Origin: Streptomyces humicola
GTDB taxonomy: Bacteria > Actinomycetota > Actinomycetes > Streptomycetales > Streptomycetaceae
Assembly: GCF_024436035.1 (NCBI RefSeq)
Contig: NZ_JANFNG010000011.1
Span: 141,004 to 205,003 of the forward strand
Length of the DNA stretch: 64,000 bases
Direction of reading: 5' to 3'
Within the stretch, counting starts at the first letter, position 1; the number at the start of each line of letters is the position of its first letter. The translations under genes and the position numbers were made by a program. Positions 7,862 to 21,349 of the stretch are shown piece by piece. The notes under the pieces were generated by a model that was not told the DNA's origin, did no database searches, and worked only from the letters and a program-made list of their open reading frames with translations.

Positions 7862-10800
7862 ATGAGCCACGAGTTGATCGATGGCAGATTCCGCGTCGGA
7901 CGGGTCGTCGGCAAGGGCAACATGGGGGAGGTCCACCAGGCGGAGGATCTGCAGGCCGCTGAGGGCGCCCCCGAGCGCACGGTCGCCATCAAGACCATCC
8001 TCCGGCGTCGCACCGGCACCCGGATCGACACCGACACCGACCCCAAGGCCGTCGAACGCTTCGCCCGCGAAGTGCGCATCATGCGCCGCCTCGGCCACCG
8101 CAACCTCACGCGGCTCATCGCCGGCGGGATCGCCGAGGACAGCGGTCTGCCCTACCTCGCAATGGAGTTCCTGGACGGCGAGACGCTCCGCGACCTCATC
8201 GAGGAGGAGTCACAGCTCCCCGTCTCCTGGGCCGCCGCCATCGGCGCCCAGATAGCCGATGGCCTCGCCGCAGCGCACGCCGCCGACATCGTCCACCGCG
8301 ACCTGAAGCCCGCCAACGCCATGCTGACCCGCGGCGGTACGGTCAAGGTGCTCGACTTCGGCATGGGCCGCATAGTCGACGACCCCGACGAGGCCCGGCT
8401 GACCAGCACCGGCGTCAGCGTGGGGACCGCCCGCTACATGGCTCCCGAGCAGTTCCAGGCCAAGCAGGTCACGCAGGCCGCCGACCTGTACGCGCTGGGC
8501 TGTGTCCTGTACGAGATGCTCGTCGGCGTACCCCCCTTCACCAGCGAGTCTCCGTATGAACTAGCCCGCAAGCACATTGGGGAGGCACCGACACCGATCG
8601 GGGTGATACGCAGCGAGATACCCGCCGAACTCGCCCGCCTCATCGACCGGTTGCTCGCCAAGGACCCGGCGGTCCGTCCGGTGGACGCCGTGGCCGTCCG
8701 CGACGCCCTGCTGCCGCTGGCCGGGCAGGACGAGAACACCACCCATCTGCCGCACTGGAGCGCCCTGGACCCCACCCGCCTGCTGTGCGGCACGGCAGTC
8801 GGCGAGGGCCCCGCCGGGGCGGCTCCCACCGCGCAGCCGGTTCCAGTGACCGCCTCCGGCTCCGCCATGGACGTCTTCGGCGTCCACCGCGCGCTCATCA
8901 AGGACTACCGCTCCTTCACCGAGGGCGGCACGGTCATCCGCGACGACCGCATCGCCGCCTTCGTCGAGGAGGACCTGAACGACAAGTCGCAGTGGCCGGA
9001 CCCGTGGCTCTCCCTCAACCCGTTCTTCAAGGGTGGTGGCACCGTCGCGGAACTGGCGGGGCAGGGCGTGTTGCACGAGGAGTGCGCCCGGATCTTCCAG
9101 GCGAACAAGACCGAGAACGGCACGGTCCCCGACGGCCGCCCGCTCACCCTCCATCAGCACCAGCGTGAAGCCGTCGACGCCGCCAACTCCGGTGCGTCCT
9201 ACGTGCTGACCACCGGCACCGGCTCCGGCAAGTCGCTCGCGTACATCGTTCCGATCGTGAACAAGGTGCTGCACGAGCGGGACGCCGGGGGGCCCAGCGC
9301 CTCAAGGCGCGTGCGGGCGATCATCGTCTATCCCATGAACGCGCTCGCCAACAGCCAGCTCAAGGAGTTGGAGAAGTACCTCCGCGACGGCTACGGCGCA
9401 GGTCGCGAACCGGTCACCTTCGCCCGGTACACCGGCCAGGAGGACGACGAGAAGCGCAAGGAGATCCGCGACAACCCGCCGGACATCCTGCTCACCAACT
9501 ACGTGATGCTCGAACTGATGCTGACCCGTCCCGCGGACCGGGCCAGCCTCATCAAGATGGCCCAAGGCCTGGAGTTCCTCGTCTTCGACGAGCTGCACAC
9601 CTACCGCGGCCGGCAGGGAGCCGACGTCGCCCTGCTGATACGACGCGTCCGCGAGGCCTGCCAGGCACAGAACCTGCAGTGCATCGGCACATCGGCCACC
9701 ATGTCCACGGAGGGCACCCTCGACGACCAGAGGAACGTCGTCGCCCAGGTGGCGAGCACTCTGTTCGGCACGCCGGTGAGCCCGGAGCACGTCATCGGCG
9801 AGACCCTCGTCCGCGCGACCGGCGAAACGCCCGACACCGTCCCCGCCCAGCGCCTCACCTCGCCCGCCGCCCCGCGCTCGTACCACGATCTGGTGCGCGA
9901 CCCGCTGGCCCGCTGGATCGAGACCCGCTTCGGCCTGGCCACGGACGAGGCCACCGGACGCCTCGTGCGACGGCGGCCCACCAAGATCGAGGTCGCCGCC
10001 AAGGAGCTGGCCGAGCAGTCCGGGGTCAGCGAAGACGCCTGCGCCGACGCGATCCGCGCCACCCTGGAGGCCGGCTCGCAGGCGCTGCATCCGGTCACCG
10101 AGCGACCGCTGTTCGCCTTCCGGCTCCACCAGTTCCTCTCCAAGGGCGACACCGTGTACGTCACCCTGGAGGACAAGCTCTCCCGCCATCTCACCCGCTC
10201 CTACCAGCTCGAACAGCCGGGCAGCGACGGCAAGCTGCTGATGCCGCTGGCGTTCTGCCGTGAGTGCGGTCAGGAGTATCTGACGGTGTGGCGCAACGAG
10301 AAGGACGGCGAGGTCCGGTACGAGGCGCGACGTGACACCTCCGCGACCGGCGGCCGTCAGGGCGACGGCTATCTCTACGTCGACCACGAACGGGAGTGGC
10401 CGTCCAACGTGCAGTACGCGGTGGACGACCGCCGGCTGCCCGAGTCCTGGCTGGAGCTGGACGACAAGGGCCAGGAGGTCGTGAAGAAGGCGTACCGGGA
10501 CCGGGTCCCGCGCGCCGTCACCGTCGACCCGTTCGGCTACGAGGGGCGCGGCGAACTCCGCGCCGCCTTCATACCGTCCCCCTTCCTGTTCTGTCTGCAC
10601 TGCGCAGTGGCGTACGAGCAGACGCGCGGCCGGGACTTCGCCAAGCTCGCGACACTCGCCCAGGAGGGACGGTCCTCCGCGACCTCGCTGATCTCCGCCT
10701 CGGTGGTGCGTTCGCTGAAGTCGGTGCCGGAGGAGGCACTCGACAAGGAGGCCCGCAAGCTCCTCACCTTCGTCGACAACCGGCAGGACGCCTCCCTCCA

Positions 10801-20200: not shown

Positions 20201-21349
20201 CGCTCGCGGCGAGATGCCGACCTTACAGCGGCCATCTATCGGCAAATTCCGGTGCTATGGAATGAGACGAAGAAAGATGGAAACCCCTGGGGTATTGCCT
20301 TTAAGCGCCTCTTTGATATGACTGACGACTCCGATCTGTTCCGTACCCGCGAGGCCCTGTTTCGGGAGGGATGGGAACTGGAGGGGAATGTCTTCGTGCG
20401 GGGCGCGCAGCGGATGTTGCCACTGTACGAGGCGAAGATGGTTGGCTTCTTCAACCATCGCGCCGCCGATGTCGTGAAGAGCGAGACAGCAGTTAACCGC
20501 CAAAACCAACCCCGTTATCTGCGCCAGGACGAGCTCCAAGACGCTGGGCGGTTCGCCCTCCCCATACACTGGATCGCCGAGCGCGGCCTCATCCCCACCC
20601 GGCGGAAGGACAGAGACGTCGCGGTTGCGGGCGTGAGCGTTCGGTTGGACGAGGTGAAATGGGACCGGGAGTGGCTCTGCGGCTGGTGCGATGTCACCGC
20701 CTCGACGAACGAGCGCACGGCCATTCCCGCCTTCCTCCCCCGAACTGCCGTCGGCCACAAGTTCCCGCTGATGCTTCCGCGTGTGTCGCCCGACCTCGCC
20801 GCGGCCCTGATCGCGGCCCAAAGCTCTCTAGTCTTCGACTACGTGAGTCGGCAGAAGATCGGCAGCACCAGTATGGGTCTATTCATATGGAAGCAGCTTC
20901 CCGTTCCCACACCAGAGTCGCTGACCCCCCATTTGTCCTTCCTCATTCCGCGGGTCCTCGAACTTGTCTATACCGCCTATGACATGGATCCACTTGCCCG
21001 TGATCTCGGCGAAGCTGGCGCCCCCTTCCGGTGGGACGAGGAGCGTCGTGGCGTGATCCGCGCTGAGCTGGACGCGTACTTCCTCCACCTCTACGGGATC
21101 AGCCCCGATGATGCGGAATACATACTGGAGGCCTTCCAGACCGACTCGGGCGGCGGCCTGAAGAACAACGAGATCGCCAAGTATGGCGAGTACCGCACCA
21201 AGCGCATGGTGCTCGCCGAGTACGACCGCATGGTGGCGGCCGGGCTCAGCCTGGAGAACCCTCTCGTGGATGGCGAGAACTACACCTCCACCCTCACTCC
21301 GCCCCCGGGCCAGGGCCCGCGTCACGAGCCCTGGCCCGAGGCTGGGTGA
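17204..21349 (+). CDS. Eco57I/PglX-like N6-adenine DNA methyltransferase, DrmMI-like
   Basis: The 1381-residue protein has an N-terminal helical domain of about 480 residues, then an N6-adenine methyltransferase core: motif I CDPACGSGHFLVAAA near residue 515, GVDLNPMAVELAKVSLWLE, and the catalytic NPPW near 793. The C-terminal 500 residues look like a target-recognition region and end in a short Pro/Gly-rich tail. Size and order match the large methylases of BREX (PglX), class 1 DISARM (DrmMI) and type IIG enzymes. No nuclease motif was recognised, so it probably modifies host DNA to mark self. From about 19,080 on the DNA is visibly less GC-rich and less codon-biased than its neighbours, which fits an exchanged specificity region. 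Confidence 0.9.
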   Translation: MSATTRNQVFSAVHTVGALLPADMLVRISEGKDVPGAKPAEYGLPSSRSVRDEAERSWEYLKPLWRELRTRLPENPETGLPAADPTGIAQADWLAPLWRELGFGRLTSVGAAGVTADSDAEKRFEVSHRWRHALIHQTAWNADLDKRPGGAGTVPPQSMLQECLNRTEAHLWGILTNGRQVRLLRDSSALATASYVEFDLEAIFDGELFSEFVLLYRLLHVSRFEVAEDAAPSACWLEKWRTEAIASGTRALDQLRKGVQTAITTLGTGFLKHPDNRELRENLDVKTFHYALLRLVYRLLFLFVAEDRDVLLSPAADETAKDRYAKYFSSARLRRHAQRRRGTAHGDLYRALRFVLSGLANDDGRPELGLPGLGGIFDDTEADKVLHGLALSNEPLLEAVRALSIVRDAGTKRNRVVDYRHLDAEELGSIYESLLELVPKHNATDRTFELVELAGNARKTTGSYYTPSSLIDCLLDSALDPVIDGAVKRGEIRATRSGQPDPRDAIVEELLSLTVCDPACGSGHFLVAAARRIAKRVAAVREQNPEPTLDAVRHALHEVVARCIYGVDLNPMAVELAKVSLWLEALEPGKPLGFLDAHVKHGNALIGATPALLAGGIPDDAFKPIEGDENKIAERLKIRNASERGGQLSFHTEERMWVSNATFAASLRDITSAPTDTLRDVRLQSSRFRDLEQSASYLHALHIADAWCAAFVWPKVQGAPTPVTEGVFRDLQNPSAGIPITTNDEIIRLAQQYKFFHWHLEFPEVFAVVEGSKAASDIEPAAGWAGGFSCVVGNPPWDKVDFEDKKYFSVVEPSVAVISGTARRTRITEWERENPEAGGRYRAARRMVKSTFLFASSSRSFPLCAKGLTVKGVNSLQTDQLFAERFATIVAPKGRFGAIIPTAIATGAGAQHLFNDFTQRGALASLYDFENRKSLFEGVDSRYKFCLLSLAGRGLAEPAARFAFFLYDTSDLEDAGRLFALSPEEINLINPNTGTLPIFRSRRDADLTAAIYRQIPVLWNETKKDGNPWGIAFKRLFDMTDDSDLFRTREALFREGWELEGNVFVRGAQRMLPLYEAKMVGFFNHRAADVVKSETAVNRQNQPRYLRQDELQDAGRFALPIHWIAERGLIPTRRKDRDVAVAGVSVRLDEVKWDREWLCGWCDVTASTNERTAIPAFLPRTAVGHKFPLMLPRVSPDLAAALIAAQSSLVFDYVSRQKIGSTSMGLFIWKQLPVPTPESLTPHLSFLIPRVLELVYTAYDMDPLARDLGEAGAPFRWDEERRGVIRAELDAYFLHLYGISPDDAEYILEAFQTDSGGGLKNNEIAKYGEYRTKRMVLAEYDRMVAAGLSLENPLVDGENYTSTLTPPPGQGPRHEPWPEAG
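21306..21338 (+). terminator. Hairpin at the end of the methyltransferase gene
   Basis: A perfect 11-bp inverted repeat (21306-21316 with 21328-21338, 11-nt loop) overlaps the last codons of the methyltransferase, nine bases before its stop. It probably terminates the three-gene operon before the convergent DUF397 gene. Confidence 0.5.

Follow-up and report, generated by a model that had tools for sequence, protein, structure and literature searches.

An ARMADA Type I-like operon in Streptomyces humicola

ARMADA, a relative of DISARM and Druantia, is a class of defence systems described in a preprint available since September 2025 (Bell et al. 2025, PMC12458937). As described in the parts of that preprint covered here, the class is defined by a YprA helicase in combination with a BrxHII/RapA-like helicase and a PglX-like methylase, the latter two being shared with DISARM Class I. 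In Type I the YprA gene generally comes first and is followed by the genes for the BrxHII/SNF2-like helicase and the PglX-like methylase; the gene order of Type II is ArmA-ArmB-ArmC-ArmD. Type II, for which the locus of E. coli ATCC 8739 is a named example, protects E. coli against 13 of 80 phages, requires all four genes and acts without cell death (PMC12458937). Type I is known so far from comparative genomics. Here we analyze a stretch of 64,000 nucleotides from Streptomyces humicola (contig NZ_JANFNG010000011.1), referred to below as the window, which contains a three-gene operon of the ARMADA Type I-like kind whose helicase is fused to an N-terminal protein kinase.

The operon consists of three intact co-directional genes on the plus strand (7862-14194, 14229-17204, and 17201-21349), with no stop codon or frameshift within any of the three reading frames. 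Open reading frame analysis, Pfam matches and comparison with orthologues show that gene 1 (7862-14194) encodes a 2110-residue protein combining a kinase, a YprA-family, ArmC-like helicase, an MZB/DUF1998 domain, and a putative Vsr-like C-terminal domain. Gene 2 (14229-17204) encodes a SNF2/RapA-like, ArmA/DrmD-like helicase of 991 residues, recognized by Pfam (SNF2, ResIII) and by profiles, and gene 3 (17201-21349) an adenine-methylase-like protein of 1382 residues of the Eco57I/N6 type, which is PglX/DrmMI-like and ArmB-like according to Pfam and profiles and contains the motifs DPACGSGHF and NPPW. The intact reading frames and Pfam domains bear out the operon and the kinase-YprA/DUF1998 fusion that a preliminary description of this DNA had proposed. 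The nuclease-like C-terminal domain of gene 1 (residues ~2012-2108) went unremarked in that description.

Both the gene order and the gene-by-gene matches identify the window system as ARMADA Type I-like. In comparison with the Type II locus of E. coli ATCC 8739, the helicase part of gene 1 matches ArmC with 125 and 121 bits (DruE3 with 109 and 94 bits), gene 2 matches ArmA with 155 bits, and gene 3 matches ArmB with 103 bits. Like Type I, which occurs in Actinomycetota and other phyla, the window operon begins with a YprA-like helicase with fused DUF1998 (PMC12458937). The C-terminal domain of this helicase is a candidate for the Vsr-like domain that is typical of Type I without belonging to its definition. 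The operon differs from Type I in having the N-terminal Hanks kinase, and in that the Vsr domain, predicted to be active there (PMC12458937), has a degenerate signature in the window and 39 other members of its clade. Type II has another gene order and an intact ArmD, whereas the window only has a truncated ArmD-like helicase 8 kb away. In trees that do not include the Type I reference protein of PMC12458937, the helicase is nested among relatives with the same gene set.

The locus is therefore a real and conserved system of a mostly known kind, and its designation in the preliminary description as a candidate undescribed system, close to a reduced DISARM or a mixture of DISARM and BREX, has to be given up: gene set and order are those of ARMADA Type I, and the NCBIfam scores for DrmD, PglX, and PglW stay below their cut-offs. 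What had been named there as fatal to the claim, an already described subtype with this fusion, applies in one half only, as the subtype has been described and the fusion is not mentioned in the main text of PMC12458937. In particular, the words 'kinase', 'phosphoryl' and 'methylation' do not occur in that main text, and the parts of the preprint covered do not mention an exchange of methylase cassettes. The fusion was also not found in literature searches or in the passages covered of PMC13316683, PMC12839542, PMC13192584, and PMC11090510. Within the literature searched, three features are new: a kinase that is intact in the fusion, a nuclease signature that has been lost in one particular clade, and a methylase with cassette-like replacement.

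Relation to DISARM, BREX and Druantia

Profile searches relate the three proteins to components of several described systems. In PADLOC, the helicase part of gene 1 scores best with DruE3 (336 bits), and the kinase part with kinases of the antiphage family PD-T4-6. Gene 2 scores below cut-off with the NCBIfam families DrmD (NF038317, 301.7 bits; cut-off 610) and DpdE (173.1 bits; cut-off 500), and matches over nearly its full length the PADLOC model PDLC02853, labelled DpdE (2020.8 bits). This model seems to cover the present helicase group, and automatic Dpd calls that depend on it may really be ARMADA. Gene 3 matches the PADLOC model DrmMI with 229.7 bits, and the NCBIfam scores for PglX (51.9 bits of 400) and PglW (50 of 990) are likewise below cut-off. 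No NCBIfam family among the listed matches of the three proteins (for protein 1, 25 of 36 families) passes its cut-off. The DrmD-like and DrmMI/PglX-like character that the preliminary description had assigned to genes 2 and 3 is supported by the DrmD and DrmMI scores.

The window operon resembles DISARM Class 1 in its DrmD-like helicase and DrmMI-like methylase. However, DrmA and DrmB are separate proteins there, whereas in the window the DEAD, Helicase_C, and MZB/DUF1998 domains all lie in one open reading frame of 2110 residues, and drmC is not among the three genes. With BREX type 2 (Pgl) it shares a Ser/Thr kinase (PglW in that system) and the PglX methylase, but PglW combines a NERD nuclease with tandem kinases, the parts of the literature covered describe no YprA helicase for BREX type 2, and none of the three window genes is PglZ or BrxC/PglY. 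Druantia type III (DruE-DruH) includes DruE3, with which the helicase part scores best in PADLOC; it is, in contrast, a two-gene system without methylase, and DruE3 ends in PLD domains (the latter from the parts of PMC12458937 covered). No DruH partner was found: genes 2 and 3 match helicase and methylase families in PADLOC instead, and further upstream the PADLOC scan covered the open reading frame 7436-7843.

Distribution and phylogeny of the kinase-helicase fusion

We compared 78 helicase loci by tblastn, comprising 20 stretches, nine plasmid loci from five phyla (chosen among 72 matching records), and 49 loci from genomes with names (L066-L114). The last group is part of a further set of 78 loci (L066-L143) derived from the best 80 of 387 relatives, in which L115-L143 matched the kinase only and were dropped. 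The kinase precedes the helicase in 50 of the 78 helicase loci. Among these, 45 have contigs that extend 7.5 kb or more downstream, and both partner genes follow on the same strand in 44, which establishes the three-gene synteny across genera to which the preliminary description had looked for support. The exception, L113 from Nocardiopsis sp. N85, is an internally deleted remnant, in which the kinase and the start of the helicase are followed by the C-terminal part of the methylase. The other 28 loci have no kinase match; they include L106, a member of the kinase clade whose contig begins within the helicase. Both partners lie on the same strand in all 22 of these loci with room for them (21 kinase-free loci and L106). 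Partners that precede the helicase, as in the plasmid loci of Chroococcidiopsis (L058) and Thermus (L061), have been noted for many archaea and cyanobacteria in the parts of PMC12458937 covered. Eight of the nine plasmid loci are without kinase, and the ninth is that of a Streptomyces (L053). Within the phylum, an orthologue with a score above 500 bits was found in 23 of 396 sampled genomes, the genome of the window included.

In a quick IQ-TREE phylogeny of 52 thinned helicases, the 25 kinase-bearing rows and the window form one clade (Shimodaira-Hasegawa-like approximate likelihood ratio support of 100), which sits beside the kinase-free loci L035 and L054. A FastTree phylogeny of the 78 loci and the window, rooted on L060, likewise unites the 52 rows of the kinase group in one clade (support 1.0), inside which the 41 rows of the main Streptomyces group form a clade of their own (support 1.0). 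According to these trees, the kinase was gained once, in a lineage nested within kinase-free ARMADA Type I-like systems. Judged by record titles, the kinase clade contains Streptomyces, Nocardiopsis, Prauserella, Amycolatopsis, Thermocrispum, Catenuloplanes, and a metagenome-assembled genome of Micromonosporaceae, members that we take to span at least four actinobacterial families. A contig labelled Melainabacteria (L087) has a kinase-helicase at 69% identity and falls in the same clade; it has probably been misbinned. Viral contigs, scanned at a sensitivity limited to close relatives, yielded none, and genes 2 and 3 had no match among phage records, a neutral outcome.

Conservation of the kinase

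The Hanks Ser/Thr kinase domain of gene 1 (residues 11-273, 7892-8680, plus strand; Pfam Pkinase, 2e-45) is PknB-like, and PknB chains are among its best relatives of solved structure. The Gly loop, VAIK Lys, alpha-C Glu, HRD, Asn, DFG, and APE motifs are all intact in the window (K44, E70, HRD145-147, N152, and DFG165-167), and the activation loop contains T181, T183, and T189. Homologues were represented by the best 120 of 7,995 scored, the named ones being mostly from Streptomyces; one of them, P0121, begins inside the helicase. All 13 core residues are intact in 118 of the 119 homologues that cover them, the window included, and in the activation loop T181 is kept in 118 and Thr or Ser at position 183 in 119. 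The intact kinase of the preliminary description is thereby confirmed, and these 119 homologues speak against a kinase that is catalytically dead in most relatives.

The ratio of nonsynonymous to synonymous substitution rates (dN/dS) indicates purifying selection on the kinase, with values of 0.07-0.22 in 11 pairs, similar to those of the two RecA stretches of the helicase (0.04-0.23). In contrast, the linker between kinase and helicase (residues 274-335, 8681-8866, plus strand) has a dN/dS of 0.26-1.82 in 11 pairs, and in ten of the 11 its dN exceeds that of each of the other five measured parts of the gene. Given the intact core residues in 118 of the 119 homologues and the low dN/dS, the kinase has most likely been retained because of its catalytic activity.

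An incomplete nuclease signature in the main Streptomyces clade

The C-terminal domain of gene 1 (residues ~2012-2108, 13895-14185, plus strand) is a candidate Vsr-like domain of the PD-(D/E)xK type. In the window it has kept D2044 and D2059 and has lost the E, G, and H of the E-D-D-G-H signature. This signature is complete in 23 of 25 kinase-free helicases, the other two (L035 and L057) having lost it without a kinase, and in all nine kinase-bearing helicases outside the main Streptomyces clade, so that Nocardiopsis, Prauserella, Catenuloplanes, and others combine a kinase with a complete signature. Inside the main Streptomyces clade it is complete in none of the 40 helicases, window included, and the tail nuclease of this clade is predicted to be inactive.

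Exchange of the methylase C-terminal half

Gene 3 proteins were compared among 17 relatives whose helicases are at least 86% identical to that of the window. Their N-terminal part (residues 1-650, 17201-19150, plus strand) is conserved, with 73-98% identity to the window per 50-residue bin. It is followed by two variable blocks on the same strand, one at residues 801-900 (19601-19900; 24-31% identity) and a second at residues 1051-1240 (20351-20920), which the identity scan and the pair comparison mark as a candidate target-recognition region; identity to the window falls to 18% at residues 1101-1150. The same scan of genes 1 and 2 (18 relatives) never drops below 60%.

Among 47 methylases, 42 of the 1081 pairs are more than 95% identical in residues 1-600, and 39 of these 42 are less than 50% identical in residues 1051-1240, which confirms the exchanged C-terminus suspected in the preliminary description. 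At the DNA level, four pairs that are about 95% identical upstream reach minima of 28-44%, and three of the four regain 87-97% identity towards the 3' end. In particular, L081/L082 fall from about 95% to 33-40% over several hundred bases and recover to 93-97%, L069/L093 recover to 89-95%, and L066/L072 to 87-90%, the recovery of L070/L077 being limited to one 200-base step. The natural reading of these profiles is a cassette-like replacement of the putative target-recognition part, with fast divergence added at its edges; the part would be exchanged much like a type I specificity gene. None of the 1081 pairs has a 1051-1240 block more alike than the N-terminal part, so that none points to a donor of the block.

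Proposed mode of action and alternatives

We consider it probable that the operon is an ARMADA Type I-like phage defence system, in which the methylase marks host DNA, the helicases act on unmarked DNA, and the fused kinase leads to protein phosphorylation. The exchangeable C-terminal half of the methylase-like protein would determine where host DNA is marked. The two helicases would load on DNA without the mark, following the state or structure of the DNA rather than its sequence. Helicases that hardly differ are found with very dissimilar methylase blocks, and gene 3 alone is therefore the most likely seat of target choice, for attack as well as for marking. A single subunit that sets the target for both would agree with BREX, where the methylase has to bind its site both for defence and for methylation (PMC11842806, in the parts covered). 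In the least certain step, the kinase would be activated in cis on helicase loading, beginning with the activation loop, which it would autophosphorylate, and would then modify the complex or host proteins, with arrest of the replication of incoming DNA. Because the tail nuclease is predicted to be inactive in the clade of the window, blocking and signalling would do the work there, not cutting by the helicase protein; with the kinase residues kept and the nuclease signature mostly lost, the kinase would now be part of the response to infection. If this is true, ARMADA Type I acquires a form, common in Streptomyces, in which a helicase that senses DNA is coupled to the phosphorylation of proteins, and the natural series of kinase-free helicases with the signature, kinase-bearing ones with it, and kinase-bearing ones without it makes the role of the kinase directly testable.

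Several observations weigh against parts of this scheme. Defence by the kinase-bearing Type I form is argued by analogy, the published activity being that of Type II, which has another gene order and a fourth gene, and phosphorylation of the complex by the kinase is putative. The branch of E. coli ArmC is very long (7.9 in the tree of 52 helicases), so that placement relative to Type II is unsure, and where the lineage is expected to have a BrxA-like helical insert, after RecA1, helices are predicted (predicted local distance difference test scores of the block mostly 62-89) with no BrxA match among those listed. One kinase homologue, P0114, the only such case among the 119, carries K44Q, K149R, N152Q, and D165G and is apparently dead; with four core residues changed, it suggests that the kinase has been dispensable at least once. 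No linker position that could serve as acceptor has Ser or Thr in more than 70% of 48 sequences. The nuclease domain is still constrained in ten pairs of the main Streptomyces clade (dN/dS 0.13-0.47), and it may therefore retain a structural or an unrecognised catalytic role. Finally, the gradual fall of methylase identity over several hundred bases in some pairs means that fast divergence contributes in addition to replacement.

The role of the kinase, in particular, can be read in more than one way. The fusion in cis, the addition of the kinase to the nuclease rather than in its place outside the main Streptomyces clade, and the conserved PknB-like activation-loop Thr would all suit a self-directed switch, in which the kinase phosphorylates its own helicase or partners and holds the system off in uninfected cells until this brake is released, and is not an output; we entertain this tentatively, as the linker, where alone acceptors were sought, offers no well-conserved one. 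Alternatively, the kinase could be the toxic output of an abortive response and halt growth by phosphorylating host proteins on target recognition, as proposed for PglW co-effectors. The PD-T4-6 matches of the kinase part and the loss of the nuclease signature in the kinase-bearing clade fit this view, as does the suicidal role proposed, though not demonstrated, in the literature covered for the Ser/Thr/Tyr kinases of BREX-2 PglW. It nevertheless seems rather unlikely, given that ARMADA II acts without cell death according to the parts of PMC12458937 covered, that nine members have both a kinase and a complete nuclease signature, and that the signature was lost twice without a kinase (L035 and L057). 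A full effector switch would require that ARMADA gained the fused kinase, which was kept under strong constraint across at least four actinobacterial families, that the main Streptomyces clade then lost the nuclease, and that the response of the DNA-scanning helicase to unmarked phage DNA is now protein phosphorylation and not cutting; as a whole we regard this course of events as unlikely.

Readings that deny the ARMADA assignment or a defence role fare much worse than the probable ARMADA Type I-like defence. The relationship of genes 2 and 3 to DrmD and DrmMI could be taken to indicate a variant of DISARM Class 1 or BREX-2/Pgl, but the DrmD, PglX, and PglW scores lie far under their cut-offs, helicase and DUF1998 form one protein, and none of the three genes is drmC, pglZ, or brxC, so that such a variant is very improbable. 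Equally hard to believe is a chromosomal operon for DNA repair or maintenance: although YprA/MrfA relatives do act in DNA repair (PMC12458937, in the parts covered) and relatives of the operon are common in Streptomyces, its distribution is patchy (the 23 of 396 sampled genomes above), it is present on plasmids of several phyla, the methylase half is replaced in a cassette-like manner, and McrBC genes stand beside it.

Other features of the operon and its neighbourhood

The start of gene 1 is ATG 7862, with a purine-rich, ribosome-binding-like stretch 5' of it. For gene 2, comparison with the relative L036 favours ATG 14229 over TTG 14217, which is still possible; the distance to gene 1 is 34 bp, or 22 bp with the TTG start. 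Gene 3 starts at ATG 17201 and overlaps the stop codon of gene 2 by 4 bp (ATGA). Within the helicase part of gene 1, the RecA1/DEAD domain (residues 432-615, 9155-9706; Pfam DEAD, alignment) contains Walker A TGTGSGKS and box II DELH, and the RecA2/Helicase_C domain (residues 1309-1374, 11786-11983; Pfam, alignment) contains QRSGRAGR. An insert at the start of RecA2 (10247-10603), predicted to be beta-rich, holds the CxxC pairs CREC (799-802) and CLHC (911-914), whose four Cys are invariant in a 24-row alignment; with at least two CxxC as in ARMADA Type I, it is a candidate zinc-binding module of the ARMADA/Druantia lineage. The MZB (MrfA Zn-binding) domain, known elsewhere as DUF1998, occupies residues 1848-1944 (13403-13693) by Pfam and Cys conservation. 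All these features lie on the plus strand.

Beside the system, downstream of the methylase, the window has a convergent regulator with helix-turn-helix (HTH) and DUF5753 domains (21567-22604, minus strand). Comparison of loci found its relatives 0.2-2.8 kb downstream of the methylase, also convergent, in 22 loci (including L106, cut at its 5' end), with 33-40% identity in L095 and L076 and 65-82% in the others. A SMC/RecF-like ATPase of 791 residues, weakly LmuB-like (23332-25707, plus strand), separates ARMADA from McrBC; in Caballeronia (L060), too, the methylase is followed by a gene with an SMC annotation. McrB (26027-28060, with DUF4357) and McrC (28057-29292) are encoded on the plus strand and were identified by Pfam and NCBIfam. 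A McrB relative occurs on the same strand within approximately 3 kb downstream of the methylase in 11 loci (L035, L054, L067, L079, L083, L088, L094, L099, and L108-L110), in part of them together with McrC, and in L088, L099, and L109 it follows the methylase by an estimated 15-33 bp. An association of McrBC with a DISARM-like cassette is already in print (PMC11090510, in the passages covered).

Directly behind McrC is an N-terminally truncated GajB/ArmD-like UvrD helicase (29441-30709, plus strand; 35.7% identity to E. coli ArmD 289-701), which is probably a remnant. A longer ArmD-like UvrD helicase is encoded between the YprA and SNF2 genes of L036 (6803-9208, minus strand), and its N-terminal stretch is RelE-like by eye, without a family call. 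The presence of an ArmD-like protein in this Type I-ordered locus blurs the published distinction between Types I and II. A type I-like N6 methylase of 553 residues (30746-32407, minus strand) is located downstream of McrBC.

In 23 Streptomyces loci (between L066 and L112), the methylase is directly followed by a gene for approximately 400 residues, which belongs to one of two sequence families, one found in ten loci (representative L066, EcsC family) and the other in 13 (representative L068, without a Pfam match). Neither family is found behind the window methylase, and there is no EcsC match in the genome of the window; these genes are perhaps interchangeable fourth components. Finally, Deinococcus radiodurans carries an ARMADA-type cassette on MP1 (L056), in which the methylase is annotated as two adjacent genes, and in five listed records of this species (H17-H21) two to four pieces had to be joined to give the helicase match.

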